DNA from: Bacteroidota bacterium
GTDB taxonomy: Bacteria > Bacteroidota > Bacteroidia > NS11-12g > UBA9320
Reading direction: 5' to 3'
NCBI GenBank assembly: GCA_947468275.1
Contig: CANIKO010000002.1
Location: 1-64,000 of the forward strand
Length of the DNA: 64,000 nt
Part shown: positions 53,297-62,733 of the stretch, piece by piece
How positions within the stretch are numbered: the first letter of the stretch is position 1
How the letters are laid out: the number at the start of each line of letters is the position of its first letter
Notes under the pieces: generated by a model
Databases searched by the model: none
Seen by the model: only the letters and a program-made list of their open reading frames with translations
Told to the model about the DNA's origin: nothing
Translations under genes and position numbers: made by a program

Positions 53297-53339
53297 CAAA
53301 GGTATTTTAGCAATAAACTATTCATAATGATTTGAATCA
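53297..53339 (-). promoter_or_regulatory. Fnr-like site and -7 box of the GH130-GT4-ppsA operon
   Basis: On the minus strand the -7 box is TACCTTTG (plus strand CAAAGGTA, 53297-53304). The palindrome TGATTTGAATCA lies at 53328-53339; its centre is 33 bases upstream of the box centre, equal to about -40 from the expected start site. No -33 TTG is visible, which fits activator-dependent transcription. Confidence 0.6.
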
Positions 53340-53417
53340 CTATAAGGTATGACACTTATCAAATAATCAACTATTTATCCATTTAATTCAAAATAAATGA
53401 GCAGGTGCCATTAATTT

Positions 53418-54927: not shown

Positions 54928-54993
54928 CAAAGTTAGAGGTGAACCAATGCTCAAAGCGATGATTTAACTCACAGAAACAAGTGATTGAAATCA
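54928..54993 (-). promoter_or_regulatory. hsp20 promoter with Fnr-like sites
   Basis: -7 box TAACTTTG on the minus strand (CAAAGTTA, 54928-54935). A perfect palindrome TGATTGAAATCA (54982-54993) is centred 56 bases from the box; an imperfect one, TGATTTAACTCA (54960-54971), is centred 34 bases from it. The two positions equal about -63 and -41. Confidence 0.55.
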
Positions 54994-55005
54994 ATAGTTT
55001 TTTTT

Positions 55006-55070
55006 TGATATAAATCATCTGTAATAATGACAGGCATCATATAAATAAATCACACAAAACACCAACTTTG
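55006..55070 (+). promoter_or_regulatory. Fnr-like site and promoter of the coiled-coil protein gene
   Basis: TGATATAAATCA (55006-55017) is centred 55 bases before a near-consensus -7 box CAACTTTG (55063-55070; only the first base deviates). That equals about -62 from the expected start, the class I position. The ATG is at 55094. Confidence 0.5.
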
Positions 55071-55787: not shown

Positions 55788-57509
55788 CTAATCACTCCAT
55801 CCTTGCCACTCATCATGGTCACCTTTTTTAAGGTCTCTCAAAATATTAAACGCTGTTATTCCAGCTATAATTAATCCAATAATACCCATGGTGGAAGTAT
55901 GACCCCAAAGTGGTGTAACGTTATGGATAATCATTAAACTGGAACCTACAATTAATGCAGCCACTATTACTGCGGAAATAACTTGTTTGCTAATGCGATT
56001 GATGGTATGCACGAGGGGGTCAATGCCTTTATGACGCAAATCCACTTTTACTTCGCCATCATTAATTCTGCGTATCGCATTTTTAAGGTCACGAGGAAAT
56101 TCTTCCATATACATTCCCATTTCATAAATTGAATTTAATATCCGTTTGGTAAATTGCACAGGATCATACTGTCGGGCTATTGAACGTATCAAATAGGGTC
56201 TTACTAATTTTGCCAAATCAATATCAGGGTCTAACTGCATAAGCACACCTTCAATAATTACCATGGAGCGAGCAAGCAGAAAGAAATGAGTTGGAACCTT
56301 TATGCCATGCAATACAATAATATCTTTCAGCTGGAGCAAAATGGTACTCATTTCATTTTTATGAATTGTTTCGACAGAAAAATTTTGAACAAATTCATTC
56401 AAATCGGTTTCTAATTCTCTGAAATTTTTGATTACCGGATTATCAGATAATTGCTGAATAGCACGAATTATTTTTCTTACATCTTTGGCATTAACAGCTA
56501 AAAAAATATTACCCAATTGTTGAATATCTTTTTTCATTATACTGCCCATCATGCCATAATCTAAATAGCAGATTACATTATTGGGTAAAATGAAAAGATT
56601 TCCGGGATGAGGATCGGCATGAAAAAATCCATAGTTAAAAATTTGTTTAATATAGGATATGGCAAATCTTTTGGCGATTAATTTCCTGTCAAGGCCTGCC
56701 TTATCCAATTTATCAATATCTGATATTTTTATTCCATCAATATATTCAAGGGCAAGAATTTTAGAAGTAGTAAATTCTTTGTAAACGATGGGTGAATGAA
56801 TAAATCCCTTATCGGTTTCATCGGTCAAAAAATTATTATGAAACCGCTGAATATTGATGGATTCGTGAATAAAATCAAGTTCCTTAGTTATGCTATCTTC
56901 AAAATTTTTAACCAAACCCACCGGGTCAAAACTTCTGACAGAGGGAATTCGTTTACTAAATATTTCGGCAACATAAAGCATTACCTTAATATCCGATTCA
57001 ATCACTTCTTTAATGCCCGGCCGTTGTATTTTTAAAACTACTTTTTCACCAGTTTTAAGTACCGCGCGATGCACTTGCGCCATGGATGCCGAGGCAAAGG
57101 CTTCAAGCTCAAAAGATTCAAACAATTCACTCGTTTTTTTACCCAATTCCTGCTCTAAAACCTGCTCAGTTATTTTTCCTGCAACCGGTGGCACCCCATC
57201 TTGTAATTTTTCGAGTTCTATTATCAAATCTAATGGGAGTAAATCGGAGCGGTTACTTAATAGCTGACCGAACTTGACAAAAGTCGGACCAAGTTCTTCA
57301 CAAACCAATCTCATTTTTTCCCACTTGGTTAAGTGAATTGAATGTTCTAAAGTTCGCTTTGGAATAAGTTTTTTCAAAAATGAAAACCGTTTCTTTTCTT
57401 CCATATACGACACCAAATCCTCAAAGCCATAATGAAGCATGACTTGCATTATTTGGTTATATCGCCTTAGGTAATGGTATTTACCATCAAGATAGGAAAG
57501 CAGCCCCAT
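55788..57509 (-). CDS. AarF/UbiB/ABC1 family kinase-like protein
   Basis: Atypical protein-kinase-like ATPase, linked in other bacteria to ubiquinone or lipid metabolism. The family motif LGPTFVKFGQLLSNRSDLLP (about 74-93) is followed by the Ala-rich loop FASASMAQVHRAVL, the ATP-binding Lys in KVVLKIQRPG, catalytic HADPHPGNLF and DFG-equivalent YLDYGMMG. Two hydrophobic helices close the C-terminus (VISAVIVAALIVGSSLMII and IGLIIAGITAFNIL). 573 residues. Its start overlaps the stop of the phasin-like gene by one base. Confidence 0.92.
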   Translation of the reverse strand: MGLLSYLDGKYHYLRRYNQIMQVMLHYGFEDLVSYMEEKKRFSFLKKLIPKRTLEHSIHLTKWEKMRLVCEELGPTFVKFGQLLSNRSDLLPLDLIIELEKLQDGVPPVAGKITEQVLEQELGKKTSELFESFELEAFASASMAQVHRAVLKTGEKVVLKIQRPGIKEVIESDIKVMLYVAEIFSKRIPSVRSFDPVGLVKNFEDSITKELDFIHESINIQRFHNNFLTDETDKGFIHSPIVYKEFTTSKILALEYIDGIKISDIDKLDKAGLDRKLIAKRFAISYIKQIFNYGFFHADPHPGNLFILPNNVICYLDYGMMGSIMKKDIQQLGNIFLAVNAKDVRKIIRAIQQLSDNPVIKNFRELETDLNEFVQNFSVETIHKNEMSTILLQLKDIIVLHGIKVPTHFFLLARSMVIIEGVLMQLDPDIDLAKLVRPYLIRSIARQYDPVQFTKRILNSIYEMGMYMEEFPRDLKNAIRRINDGEVKVDLRHKGIDPLVHTINRISKQVISAVIVAALIVGSSLMIIHNVTPLWGHTSTMGIIGLIIAGITAFNILRDLKKGDHDEWQGWSD

Positions 57510-57886
57510 TATTTATTTTTCGTTTCTAAATCCGAAATCTTTGATTCAATTATTGATATTTTCATTTCTAAAGATTCTATTTTATCTGAAAGAATTTGCA
57601 AATCATCAGAATGTGCTAGATGCATTTTTTTATAAACGGAAACGGCCACCTCTTCCATTTTTTTTTCAAACTCTTCCTTGGCTTGCTGAGCCTTTTGCAT
57701 AACTTTTTGAATAAGACTTTCATCACCTTCTTCCTCTCCTTCCGAAAATCCATCCATAAAATCATCTAGTTTCTGTTTACCCTTTTTGGTTATTTCAGTG
57801 ACGTTTTTCATAAATTGTTCATCCTTGGATAATATGTAAAGATTTGTGGATAGAGTTAAAAGTTCTACTAAAGTTTTTGCTCTCAT
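57509..57886 (-). CDS. Phasin-like coiled-coil protein
   Basis: 125 residues from ATG 57886. The promoter box at 57905-57912 puts transcription start near 57901, so a longer frame starting at 57907 is unlikely. The protein is a helical coiled coil (VELLTLSTNLYILSKDEQFM, then QKVMQKAQQAKEEFEKKMEE and ILSDKIESLEMKISIIESK), similar to phasins and PHA-regulator-type proteins that often sit beside ABC1 kinases. No polyester synthase is nearby, so the phasin label is structural. It overlaps the UbiB-like gene by one base. Confidence 0.7.
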   Translation of the reverse strand: MRAKTLVELLTLSTNLYILSKDEQFMKNVTEITKKGKQKLDDFMDGFSEGEEEGDESLIQKVMQKAQQAKEEFEKKMEEVAVSVYKKMHLAHSDDLQILSDKIESLEMKISIIESKISDLETKNK

Positions 57887-57904
57887 GGTTAATGTTTTAA
57901 AGGA

Positions 57905-57947
57905 CAAAATTGCAAAAATTTAGTTAAAAGTTAGATGATACAAATCA
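57905..57947 (-). promoter_or_regulatory. Fnr-like site and -7 box of the phasin-UbiB operon
   Basis: Minus strand -7 box CAATTTTG (plus CAAAATTG, 57905-57912; first base differs from consensus). The palindrome TGATACAAATCA (57936-57947) is centred exactly 33 bases upstream. A second site belonging to the divergent promoter is centred 66 bases upstream. Confidence 0.5.
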
Positions 57948-57968
57948 CTTCCGAAGTATAAAAAATCA

Positions 57969-58011
57969 TGATGAATATCACATATAAATGGGACAAACAG
58001 GAATAGCTTTG
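57969..58011 (+). promoter_or_regulatory. Fnr-like site and -7 box of the CBS-Na/Pi operon
   Basis: TGATGAATATCA (57969-57980) is centred exactly 33 bases before the centre of the perfect box TAGCTTTG (58004-58011). The ATG lies 14 bases after the box. The neighbouring site at 57936-57947 is centred 66 bases upstream of the same box. Confidence 0.6.
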
Positions 58012-58025
58012 TAAAAAATAAGGTT

Positions 58026-58430
58026 ATGAATATTAACACTCCCATTTCTGAGATTATGACCAAACATGTGGTATCTGTAAACTCTTCACAAAAATTGGTT
58101 GATGTGAAACATATTTTTGAAAAAAAAGAATTTCATCACCATATTCCAGTTGTAGATGATGGAAAATTAATTGGAATAATTAGTTTAATAGATTTTATGT
58201 ATGCTATTAAAAATGCTTCTTTGGATGATGATGAAGCGGTTTATACCACTCAACTAGTAAGGGAAATTATGCATAAAAAACCAATTACTAAATCATCAAC
58301 TTCTACATTGAAAGAAATTGCTGAAGAATTAGCAAAAGGCGAAGTGCACGCCATCGTTATTGCTGATAATGAATCGCTTAAAGGAATTGTTTCCACTGCC
58401 GATGTAATTCGTTTCTTTTTATCTAACTAA
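58026..58430 (+). CDS. CBS domain protein
   Basis: 134 residues forming one pair of CBS motifs (a Bateman module) that binds adenine nucleotides and senses energy state. CBS1: ISEIMTKHVVSVNSSQKLVD to HHIPVVDDGKLIGIISLIDF. CBS2: VREIMHKKPITKSSTSTLKE to HAIVIADNESLKGIVSTADV. No other domain. It starts 14 bases after its promoter box and four bases before the Na/Pi transporter gene, so they form an operon. Such stand-alone CBS proteins are common in hypoxia and stress clusters. Confidence 0.93.
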   Translation: MNINTPISEIMTKHVVSVNSSQKLVDVKHIFEKKEFHHHIPVVDDGKLIGIISLIDFMYAIKNASLDDDEAVYTTQLVREIMHKKPITKSSTSTLKEIAEELAKGEVHAIVIADNESLKGIVSTADVIRFFLSN

Positions 58431-58433
58431 ATT

Positions 58434-60122
58434 TTGTCGCTTACTAACTTTTGGCAACTATTGGCGGGGCTTTCCATTTTTCTATTTGGGATGTACCAAC
58501 TAGAAATTGCTTTGAAACAGCTCGCAGGAAGAACCTTTAAACTTTTCTTAAGAAAACATACGGAAAATAAGTTAAGTGCCATTTTTAGCGGAACCATTGT
58601 TACAGCAGTATTACAAAGTAGTTCGGTGGTTACATTTATGGTATTAAGTTTTGTAGGTGCCGGAGTAATAAATATGCGAAATGCTTTGGCAGTAGTGTTA
58701 GGATCTAACTTAGGAACCACCTTGGGTAGTTGGGTGGTTGCTATGCTAGGTTTCAAATTAGATATTGAAAAATTTGCACTTCCAATAATAGCCGTATCAG
58801 GCATTGGACTCATTGTCTTTGTCAATCGAAAAAAACTTTTCCAGGTATCCAATTTTCTTCTGGGTTTTGGATTATTGTTTCTTGGACTAAATTATATGAA
58901 GAAAAGTATGGAGTCATTATTTACAAATCTCGACTTTACACCTTACTTGCATTTAAATTTATTGAGTTTTGTATTAATAGGTTTTGTTATTACCGCCATT
59001 ATTCAGTCAAGTTCGGCTACAATGGTGATTACATTAACTACTCTCAATGCAGGTGCCATACCCTTCAATTTTGCTGTGGCTATTATAATTGGGTCTGAAC
59101 TTGGTACCTCCATAAAAACTTTGGTGGGTTCAATTGGAGGGATTTCCGCCAAAAGACGCGTGGCTTTGGGAAACATTATTTTTAATTTCGTAATCACAGT
59201 TTTTGCGTTTGCTTTTATGACACCTATAATAAGTTTGATTCAAAAAACAATTGAAATAAAAGATCCACTTATTGGGTTGGTGCTATTTCAAACAATCATT
59301 AACTTAATAGGTATTATTTTATTTTTCCCATTCCTAAAAAAATTCAGTGATTTCCTAGAAAATAGATTTAAAAATAATCAAAAAACAGCCACATTCTACA
59401 TTCAAAATATTAGTCCTAAAATGCCGGAAATAGCAGTTGAAGTGCTAGAAAAAGAAACGCTATTATTTATACAACGGGTTATCAGTATCAACATGGAAGC
59501 TTTTCATGTAGTTGGAATAGAGTTAAAATATGATATAGAAATAAATGATCTGTTTAATAAAAATATAAGCAAGTTAATTACCTACAATGAAAAATATGAT
59601 GATGTAAAACATGCTGAAGGCGAGATACTTTCACTTTATACTAAAATGAACGAGGTGGAAATTGAAAAGGAAGATTTTATAAGACTCAACCAATTAGTTG
59701 CATCTGTAAGAAATGCGATGTATAGCGCCAAAGGTATCAAAGATGTGCGACATGATAGAAAAGAGCTAAGTGAATCGGCCATTGATATTAAATATAATTA
59801 TTACAAGTTTTTACAATCTCAATTACATGATTTCTACAATACTCTCAATGAACTTTTATCTTATAAAGAAGCGACAACTTGTTTTGAAGAATTAATAAGG
59901 TTGATGGGACAAATTCAAAAGGATTATGAAAATAGGTTGAATAATATTTACCAACTTTCAGCCAAAAACACCCTCGAAGAATACGACGTTTCAACATTAT
60001 TAAATGTAAATCGCGAGGTGTATTCCTCTTGCAAAGCTTTAATTTATTCGCTTAAAGATTATCTTCTAGACACTATACATGCCGAAGATTTTGAAAGCGT
60101 TCCAGTTTCTGTAATAAAGTAG
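58434..60122 (+). CDS. Na/Pi cotransporter family protein with PhoU-like tail
   Basis: 562 residues. Two inverted membrane repeats carry the QSSS signature: VLQSSSVVTFMVLSFVGAG (about 63-81) and IIQSSSATMVITLTTLNAG (about 188-206); about nine hydrophobic helices. The C-terminal 220 residues (about 335-562) are helical and PhoU-like. Starts at TTG 58434, which overlaps nothing but is the first in-frame start after the CBS stop. Probably imports phosphate with sodium; regulation by the CBS partner is possible (inference). Confidence 0.9.
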   Translation: MSLTNFWQLLAGLSIFLFGMYQLEIALKQLAGRTFKLFLRKHTENKLSAIFSGTIVTAVLQSSSVVTFMVLSFVGAGVINMRNALAVVLGSNLGTTLGSWVVAMLGFKLDIEKFALPIIAVSGIGLIVFVNRKKLFQVSNFLLGFGLLFLGLNYMKKSMESLFTNLDFTPYLHLNLLSFVLIGFVITAIIQSSSATMVITLTTLNAGAIPFNFAVAIIIGSELGTSIKTLVGSIGGISAKRRVALGNIIFNFVITVFAFAFMTPIISLIQKTIEIKDPLIGLVLFQTIINLIGIILFFPFLKKFSDFLENRFKNNQKTATFYIQNISPKMPEIAVEVLEKETLLFIQRVISINMEAFHVVGIELKYDIEINDLFNKNISKLITYNEKYDDVKHAEGEILSLYTKMNEVEIEKEDFIRLNQLVASVRNAMYSAKGIKDVRHDRKELSESAIDIKYNYYKFLQSQLHDFYNTLNELLSYKEATTCFEELIRLMGQIQKDYENRLNNIYQLSAKNTLEEYDVSTLLNVNREVYSSCKALIYSLKDYLLDTIHAEDFESVPVSVIK

Positions 60123-61322: not shown

Positions 61323-61366
61323 CAAAATTATTGTGATAAATAACAAGGCATCAATGATTAAAATCA
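61323..61366 (-). promoter_or_regulatory. Fnr-like site and -7 box of the BON gene
   Basis: Minus-strand box TAATTTTG (CAAAATTA, 61323-61330) is perfect. The palindrome TGATTAAAATCA (61355-61366) is centred 34 bases upstream. The same palindrome lies 55 bases before the box of the divergent DUF6629-like gene. Confidence 0.6.
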
Positions 61367-62668: not shown

Positions 62669-62733
62669 TGATTTAAATCATCTTATTTTTTGATTAGAGT
62701 CAAGGATTAAACCATTTCTATTGAATAATTTTG
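62669..62733 (+). promoter_or_regulatory. Fnr-like site and -7 box of the universal stress protein genes
   Basis: TGATTTAAATCA (62669-62680) extends to a perfect 14-base palindrome with flanking A and T. Its centre is exactly 55 bases before the centre of the perfect box TAATTTTG (62726-62733). The predicted start site is near 62736 and the ATG at 62761. Confidence 0.6.

Follow-up and report, generated by a model that had tools for sequence, protein, structure and literature searches.

How are two divergent gene pairs, a phasin-like gene followed by a UbiB-type kinase-like gene on one strand and a CBS-domain gene followed by a Na/Pi symporter gene on the other, controlled from the short interval that separates them? 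In the window, by which we mean the whole 64,000-nucleotide stretch of DNA that was analysed, the ATG of the phasin-like gene (57886, minus strand) and that of the CBS gene (58026, plus strand) are separated by a gap of 139 bases holding two palindromes and two outward-facing boxes (Table 1). Both palindromes read TGAT-N4-ATCA, the two-fold symmetric pattern of CRP/FNR-type sites, and are taken here as predicted sites. The centre of site 1 (57941.5) lies 33 bases from that of the minus-strand box (57908.5), the centre of site 2 (57974.5) lies 33 bases from that of the plus-strand box (58007.5), and the two sites are themselves 33 bases apart; site 2 forms a site-N23-box unit with 0 mismatches. 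The original prediction had described a mirror-image promoter with two activator sites at 33 and 66 bases from the boxes, and all of its sites, boxes and 33-base centre distances are found where it placed them. The two values of 66 are also correct, but each is a sum of two 33s and adds no independent evidence, so that a reading of 33 and 66 as separate observations is rejected. The phasin-like gene probably begins at ATG 57886, since the TTG at 57907 chosen by the ORF finder overlaps the minus-strand box and the orthologues begin with M[RK][AT][KR]T.

Table 1. Predicted promoter elements and genes of the divergent region, sister modules in the window, and candidate regulators.
Feature	Position	Strand	Remarks
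Site 1 TGATACAAATCA	57936-57947		Predicted centre -41.5 relative to the minus-strand phasin-UbiB unit (proximal site) and -74.5 relative to the plus-strand unit (distal site)
Site 2 TGATGAATATCA	57969-57980		Predicted centre -41.5 relative to the plus-strand CBS unit (proximal site); distal site of the minus-strand unit
-7 box TAGCTTTG	58004-58011	+	TAnnTTTG, 0 mismatches; predicted transcription start 58016, leader 10 bases
-7 box CAATTTTG	complement of 57905-57912	-	1 mismatch to TAnnTTTG; predicted transcription start 57900, leader 14 bases
Phasin-like protein MRAKTLVELL...	57509-57886	-	PF05597, E 1.8e-4, under the curated cut-off
UbiB/ABC1-type kinase-like protein	55788-57509	-	Gene 2 of the minus-strand unit; PF03109; best model UbiB, under its cut-off
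Two-CBS-domain protein	58026-58430	+	Gene 1 of the plus-strand unit; PF00571, 2 stretches
Na/Pi symporter	58434-60122	+	Gene 2 of the plus-strand unit; NF037997, above cut-off
Sister module upstream of GH130 gene	53297-53361	-	Box TACCTTTG; sites at 53328 and 53350, spacing 22
Sister divergent region, Hsp20 (-) / 204-aa gene (+)	54928-55070		Sites 54960 (one mismatch), 54982, 55006, 55028
Hsp20-side box TAACTTTG	54928-54935	-	34 from site 54960; read by eye
204-aa-gene-side box CAACTTTG	55063-55070	+	One mismatch; 33 from site 55028
Sister site upstream of BON-domain gene	61323-61366	-	Box TAATTTTG 24 bases away
Sister module upstream of universal stress protein gene	62669-62733	+	Sites 62669 and 62691 (22 apart); box TAATTTTG at 62726-62733
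Candidate regulator, receiver-cNMP-HTH_Crp fusion	C2:76006-77070		18 kb from the promoter; behind/beside a PAS histidine kinase; helix SPESVSR
Second receiver-CRP fusion and its own PAS histidine kinase	C12:64162-65220 and C12:65233-66414 (L031)		Helix TATETVIR
FNR-like protein with four N-terminal cysteines	C7:86967-87680		C-x2-C-x5-C-x4-C; helix EQISR
FNR-like genes of fusion-free genomes	L162-L165, L167, L168, L176, L177, L182		Helix GTATET-x-IR; mostly four N-terminal cysteines

The meaning of the 33-base distance depends on where transcription starts. In Flavobacterium psychrophilum the sigma-A box TAnnTTTG is placed at -12 to -5 (PMC9723704); transferred from that different species, this position gives starts at 58016 and 57900, proximal sites at -41.5 and distal sites at -74.5. 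By this arithmetic on a borrowed start position, each proximal site is predicted to be centred at the class II position of CRP and FNR. The fixed site-to-box distance that characterizes class II promoters is found on both sides, at 33 bases centre to centre. Inspection by eye around 57978-57990 on the plus strand and 57926-57940 on the minus strand revealed no good TTTG upstream core element at -33. A scan of promoters with a sigma-70 model, which is the wrong promoter type here, returned 6 matches against 4.6 expected.

The arrangement is more frequent than shuffled or reversed sequence would predict. In the window, TGATNNNNATCA occurs 13 times against a mean of 1.86 in 100 shuffles, and 8 of the 13 occurrences fall between 53 and 63 kb. 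The complete mirror, defined as two sites no more than 60 bases apart, each with an outward box (at most one mismatch) exactly 33 bases away, is present once in the window and in none of 1,000 dinucleotide shuffles, which reproduce the composition of the whole window rather than that of this AT-rich gap. Across the genome, site-N23-TAnnTTTG with at most one mismatch gives 23 matches, the reversed pattern only 1. When the gap was left free between 8 and 38 bases in 15 genomes, a gap of 23 accounted for 22 of 87 matches and the runner-up, 24, for 7, whereas the reversed pattern yielded 15 matches summed over all gaps.

Promoters of CBS orthologues show which of the three distances is maintained. 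We compared 12 such promoters, 11 of them distinct (L143 and L151 have an identical promoter, counted once); of 16 CBS homologue rows, 3 entered the orthologue set, whereas the 13 others, which are more distant (32-40% identity) and include one from this genome, did not. A divergent phasin-like gene is recognized at 10 of the 11 distinct promoters, G122 having another protein on the divergent side. Both sites are intact in 7 of the 11; an intact second site is absent from the other four, among which G122, G199 and G276 show one site and G151 a weak second site at 31. In the seven intact promoters the site-to-site spacing is 33 in this window, 31 in the same genus, 22 in the same family, 32 in another family (G452) and 31 in G202, G233 and G263, which belong to one further family. 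In contrast, a search that tolerated shifts of up to two bases found every one of the 14 site-to-box distances of these promoters to be 33 or 32, the boxes having no more than one mismatch; among the minus-strand boxes of the six other intact promoters, one is at 32 and the others are at 33. The site-to-box distance is kept, whereas the sites stand roughly two or three helix turns apart, at differing spacings.

These comparisons separate the parts of the original prediction. The two putative activator-type sites, both TGAT-N4-ATCA, are intact in the same 7 of 11 promoters, and there each direction keeps its own site and box. The exact 33/33/33 symmetry is given up by a spacing of 31 within the genus and 22 within the family, at an unchanged site-to-box distance of 33, and the relatives' spacings rule out an exact 33-base rule between sites. 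The loss of spacing in relatives that had been named as grounds for refutation is thus seen for the pair of sites and not for site and box, so that the latter distance appears to be the hard constraint and the third 33 a coincidence within a looser phase rule. Multiples of 11 bases, read as helix turns, survive in that looser form, as a phase of about two or three turns in 157 of 165 listed modules (see below), and not as an exact 33 between sites. Among the distant CBS homologues (32-40% identity), only 4 of 13 have a single site-N23-box upstream. The homologue that belongs to this genome (32% identity), its second CBS-domain gene, is preceded by a perfect site-N23-box unit (G000:C1:205262-205304, L002).

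The pair of sites is part of a widespread module. A search for box-N23-site-gap-site with gaps of 0-30 bases (site spacings of 12-42) gave 25 matches in 21 of the 108 genomes of the order and none for the reversed control in the same 108; in the class, 108 of 395 genomes contained matches and the reversed control again had none in 395. The class matches listed comprise 150 rows from 83 of the 108 matching genomes and represent 142 distinct places. Addition of 15 rows from the order search (14 genomes), after 10 order rows already in the class listing had been dropped, gives 165 rows, in which each of 8 perfect mirrors is counted twice, once per strand. Among these listed rows the site spacing is 22 in 122, 23 in 18 and 21 in 2 (142 at 21-23), 31-35 in 15 and elsewhere in 8. 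Widening the gap to 31-61 bases (spacings of 44-70) yielded just 24 matches, from 20 of the 395 genomes, and 9 of the 24 had spacings of 44-46. Such a distribution suggests that the usual position of a second dimer would be two turns away, with three turns as a minor mode, to which the promoter of the window would belong. Of the 55 distinct pairs in loci L048-L102, the subset used for this count, 7 are accompanied by an opposite box that is no more than one base off the mirror position and has at most one mismatch, and 48 lack one; at the exact mirror offset such a box is found in 6 of 55 pairs, against 0-4 at other offsets. Since 48 of 55 pairs have no opposite box, the second site seems to be part of the same single promoter. 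The mirror promoter would then be a one-promoter module with a box at both ends, in a count that might miss a weak opposite box. We found no description of this module or of its regulon in the open-access literature searched.

Eight mirrors with perfect boxes are present among the class matches listed, with a spacing of 22 in six, 32 in one and 34 in one. ORFs flank all eight on both sides, the left ORF of L104 being doubtful as it overlaps the sites. The mirror with spacing 32 (L109) is the same phasin/CBS promoter in another family. Genes flanking other mirrors encode DnaJ (opposite a unit whose second gene encodes a universal stress protein), a baeRF protein, DUF892 followed by an Hsp20-like gene (by eye), a ferredoxin facing a 2-oxoacid oxidoreductase, and a metal ATPase. 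No Pfam family was matched by the proteins on both sides of L106 and L110 or by the phasin-like protein of L109. A four-site array with spacings of 22, 23 and 22 and perfect boxes at both ends was also seen (G418:C43:142949-143089, L111), near ORFs that resemble a metal ATPase and a histidine kinase by eye.

Sister modules occur elsewhere in the window and genome. The region between the Hsp20 gene and the 204-aa gene carries a phased array of four sites, spaced 22, 24 and 22. A mirror was considered at 62669/62691 and rejected: on the minus side, the sequence at 33 has 2 mismatches to the box and an exact box is found only at gap 15, so that the plus side alone is claimed. The universal stress protein there is listed from 62731; its probable start is 62761. 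In 18 of the 23 genome-wide site-box matches an ORF of at least 70 codons, which need not be a gene in every case, starts no more than 60 bases from the box. The products of these ORFs include two CBS proteins, GH130, a universal stress protein, one protein that resembles erythromycin esterase and another that has two CxxCH motifs and looks, by eye, like a dihaem cytochrome. A perfect site-box unit at G000:C9:47536-47578 (L029) precedes a tryptophanase-like gene (by eye), with a nitric-oxide-reductase-like gene behind it. The idea that one site at C9:47567 serves both directions was discarded, as no ORF was seen in the plus direction. The neighbourhood of Hsp20, universal stress proteins, BON, L,D-transpeptidase, erythromycin-esterase-like and baeRF proteins makes a stress or low-oxygen regulon likely.

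Which protein might bind these sites? The genome encodes four CRP/FNR-type regulators, two of which are fusions of receiver, cNMP_binding and HTH_Crp_2 domains, located on contigs C2 and C12. Their different recognition helices suggest two paralogous systems. The C2 fusion has the CRP fold with HTH_Crp_2 and an E-x-x-S-R helix, and scores 87.6 bits with the NCBIfam Fnr model, whose cut-off is 228; N-terminal cysteines for an iron-sulphur cluster are absent from it, a receiver domain standing in their place. An E-x-x-S-R helix is the FNR-type reading of TTGAT. The C2 fusion is our first choice of regulator for this promoter, as a candidate by neighbourhood only, given four CRP/FNR-type regulators in the genome.

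Within the class, receiver-CRP fusions are found in 198 of 395 genomes, and are carried by 79 of the 108 motif genomes against 119 of the 287 others (Fisher p 2e-8, uncorrected for kinship). For genomes with a fusion, 100 motif places were listed, and at least 38 of them, spread over 24 of 48 genomes, have a listed fusion gene no further than 20 kb away, where a rough estimate gives an expectation of about 1%. Conversely, 119 genomes have a fusion but no pair match, and 29 of the 108 motif genomes have no fusion at E 1e-40, which excludes the receiver-CRP protein as the sole class-wide regulator of the module; the matches listed for these genomes at E 1e-6 extend over just one of the two parts, receiver or CRP. 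Of the 23 places listed for fusion-free motif genomes, 9 have an FNR-like gene at a distance of at most 20 kb, and these nine neighbours share the helix GTATET-x-IR, also found in one fusion subtype; eight of the nine have four cysteines within their first 40 residues. Recognition helices, read fully or partly for 26 of 30 fusion loci, with 3 of 30 FNR-like loci giving no match, follow E-x-x-[SI]-R. A common helix and a common module combined with differing sensor parts point to FNR-type regulators with alternative sensors acting on one promoter module.

Taken together, these data make it probable that the region is a bidirectional, activator-dependent promoter under a CRP/FNR-type regulator, with joint class II activation in both directions and help from a phased distal dimer. 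The sequence itself displays the sites and boxes with their distances and conservation, the phase rule and the clustering with regulator genes; from these we infer the binding, activation rather than repression, the regulator and the signal. Regulator dimers would bind both palindromes; the dimer at -41.5 of its own direction could stand in for the -33 element, which is poorly defined, and make contact with RNA polymerase, as at class II promoters, while the other dimer, on the same DNA face two to three turns upstream, may add a class I contact or a dimer-dimer contact. As 22 bases is about the length covered by one CRP-family dimer, neighbouring dimers at that spacing would abut. With a dimer at each palindrome activating its own direction, one signal would induce phasin-UbiB and CBS-Na/Pi together, and the same regulon in the window may include the Hsp20, universal stress protein, BON protein and GH130 genes.

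Several other readings have to be weighed. Single TGATNNNNATCA palindromes do arise by chance in AT-rich DNA (130 in the genome, 62 for the reversed pattern), but the likelihood that the region is no more than this is negligible considering the empty set of 1,000 shuffled windows, the conservation of the sites in other families and the failure of the reversed pair module to appear in 395 genomes. Two class II promoters standing back to back and working independently, with no role for the distance between sites, would agree with a site-to-box distance that is the best kept of all and with spacings that vary from 22 to 33 in orthologous promoters; the phase of two or three turns in 157 of 165 listed modules speaks against such independence, as do the 48 of 55 pairs without an opposite box, where second sites occur without a visible second promoter, and we regard this arrangement as quite improbable. 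It is very improbable that the second dimer represses or switches direction, making the region a choice switch instead of a site of joint activation. There is a precedent in E. coli, where certain promoters can be down-regulated by FNR dimers bound upstream, but the same pair, with its proximal site 33 from the box, recurs in those 48 of 55 cases where there is no opposite box, which argues indirectly against it.

The same layout might instead be bound by the FNR-like protein of C7, which has four N-terminal cysteines, rather than by a receiver-CRP fusion, so that the protein itself would sense the signal. Its C-x2-C-x5-C-x4-C motif and EQISR helix fit this proposal, as do the cysteine-bearing FNR-like genes near 9 of 23 listed places in fusion-free genomes. 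However, contig C7 carries none of the four listed pairs of this genome (three share a contig with one fusion, the fourth with the other fusion) and none of the 23 site-box matches, and the C7 helix is unlike those of the FNR-like neighbours in fusion-free genomes. We therefore consider C7 an unlikely regulator, and retain joint activation by a CRP/FNR-type protein, with the C2 fusion as first candidate, as the preferred reading.

A broader proposal, about evenly poised between acceptance and doubt, is that throughout Bacteroidota one FNR-type family drives stress and low-oxygen genes by a fixed module, consisting of a class II site at -41.5 and a second dimer that abuts it two turns (22 bases) upstream or stands three turns (31-35) upstream, with mirrors arising from a box added at the other end; the sensor would be exchangeable, either a cysteine cluster or a phosphorylated receiver with a partner kinase, on nearly the same helix, GTATET-x-IR. 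If this is true, an FNR has been turned into a two-component regulator, and the region may exemplify an FNR-like activator whose sensor was replaced while its promoters stayed the same. The module also offers a precise rule for the position of an activator relative to the TAnnTTTG box and a searchable signature for a probable stress regulon. A study of Flavobacterium johnsoniae was unable to identify the -33 motif of Bacteroidota promoters in that species (PMC7366714), so that such a rule bears on how activators engage these promoters.

Comparison with known systems places the module among several familiar types. E. coli class II CRP/FNR promoters of the galP1 type likewise have a palindromic TGA-N6-TCA centred at -41.5, here counted from a predicted start, but the core promoter in the present case is the Bacteroidota TAnnTTTG box. 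FNR/FixK regulons, whose site core is TGAT-N4-ATCA, share this core and the E-x-x-S-R recognition helix with our module, whereas the neighbouring regulator of this lineage is fused to a receiver domain and adjoins a histidine kinase. The E. coli FNR consensus is TTGAT-N4-ATCAA; its core TGAT-N4-ATCA is present at both sites of the window promoter, and its outer T...A is absent from both, each site having A as its left and C as its right neighbour. In the DosR dormancy regulon of mycobacteria, a two-component regulator brings together universal stress, Hsp20-type and CBS genes, a likeness in regulator type and gene content; DosR has a NarL/FixJ-type HTH and the candidate here HTH_Crp_2. The tandem (class III) CRP promoter of Vibrio tfoX has one site at -41.5 and a second 43 bases upstream that act together, and that report places the best synergy of such promoters at a second site some 40 or 50 bases upstream (PMC4595672). 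Here, a second site that lies 22 bases upstream as a rule, or 31-35, makes the 22-base arrangement a distinct variant of the tandem promoter.
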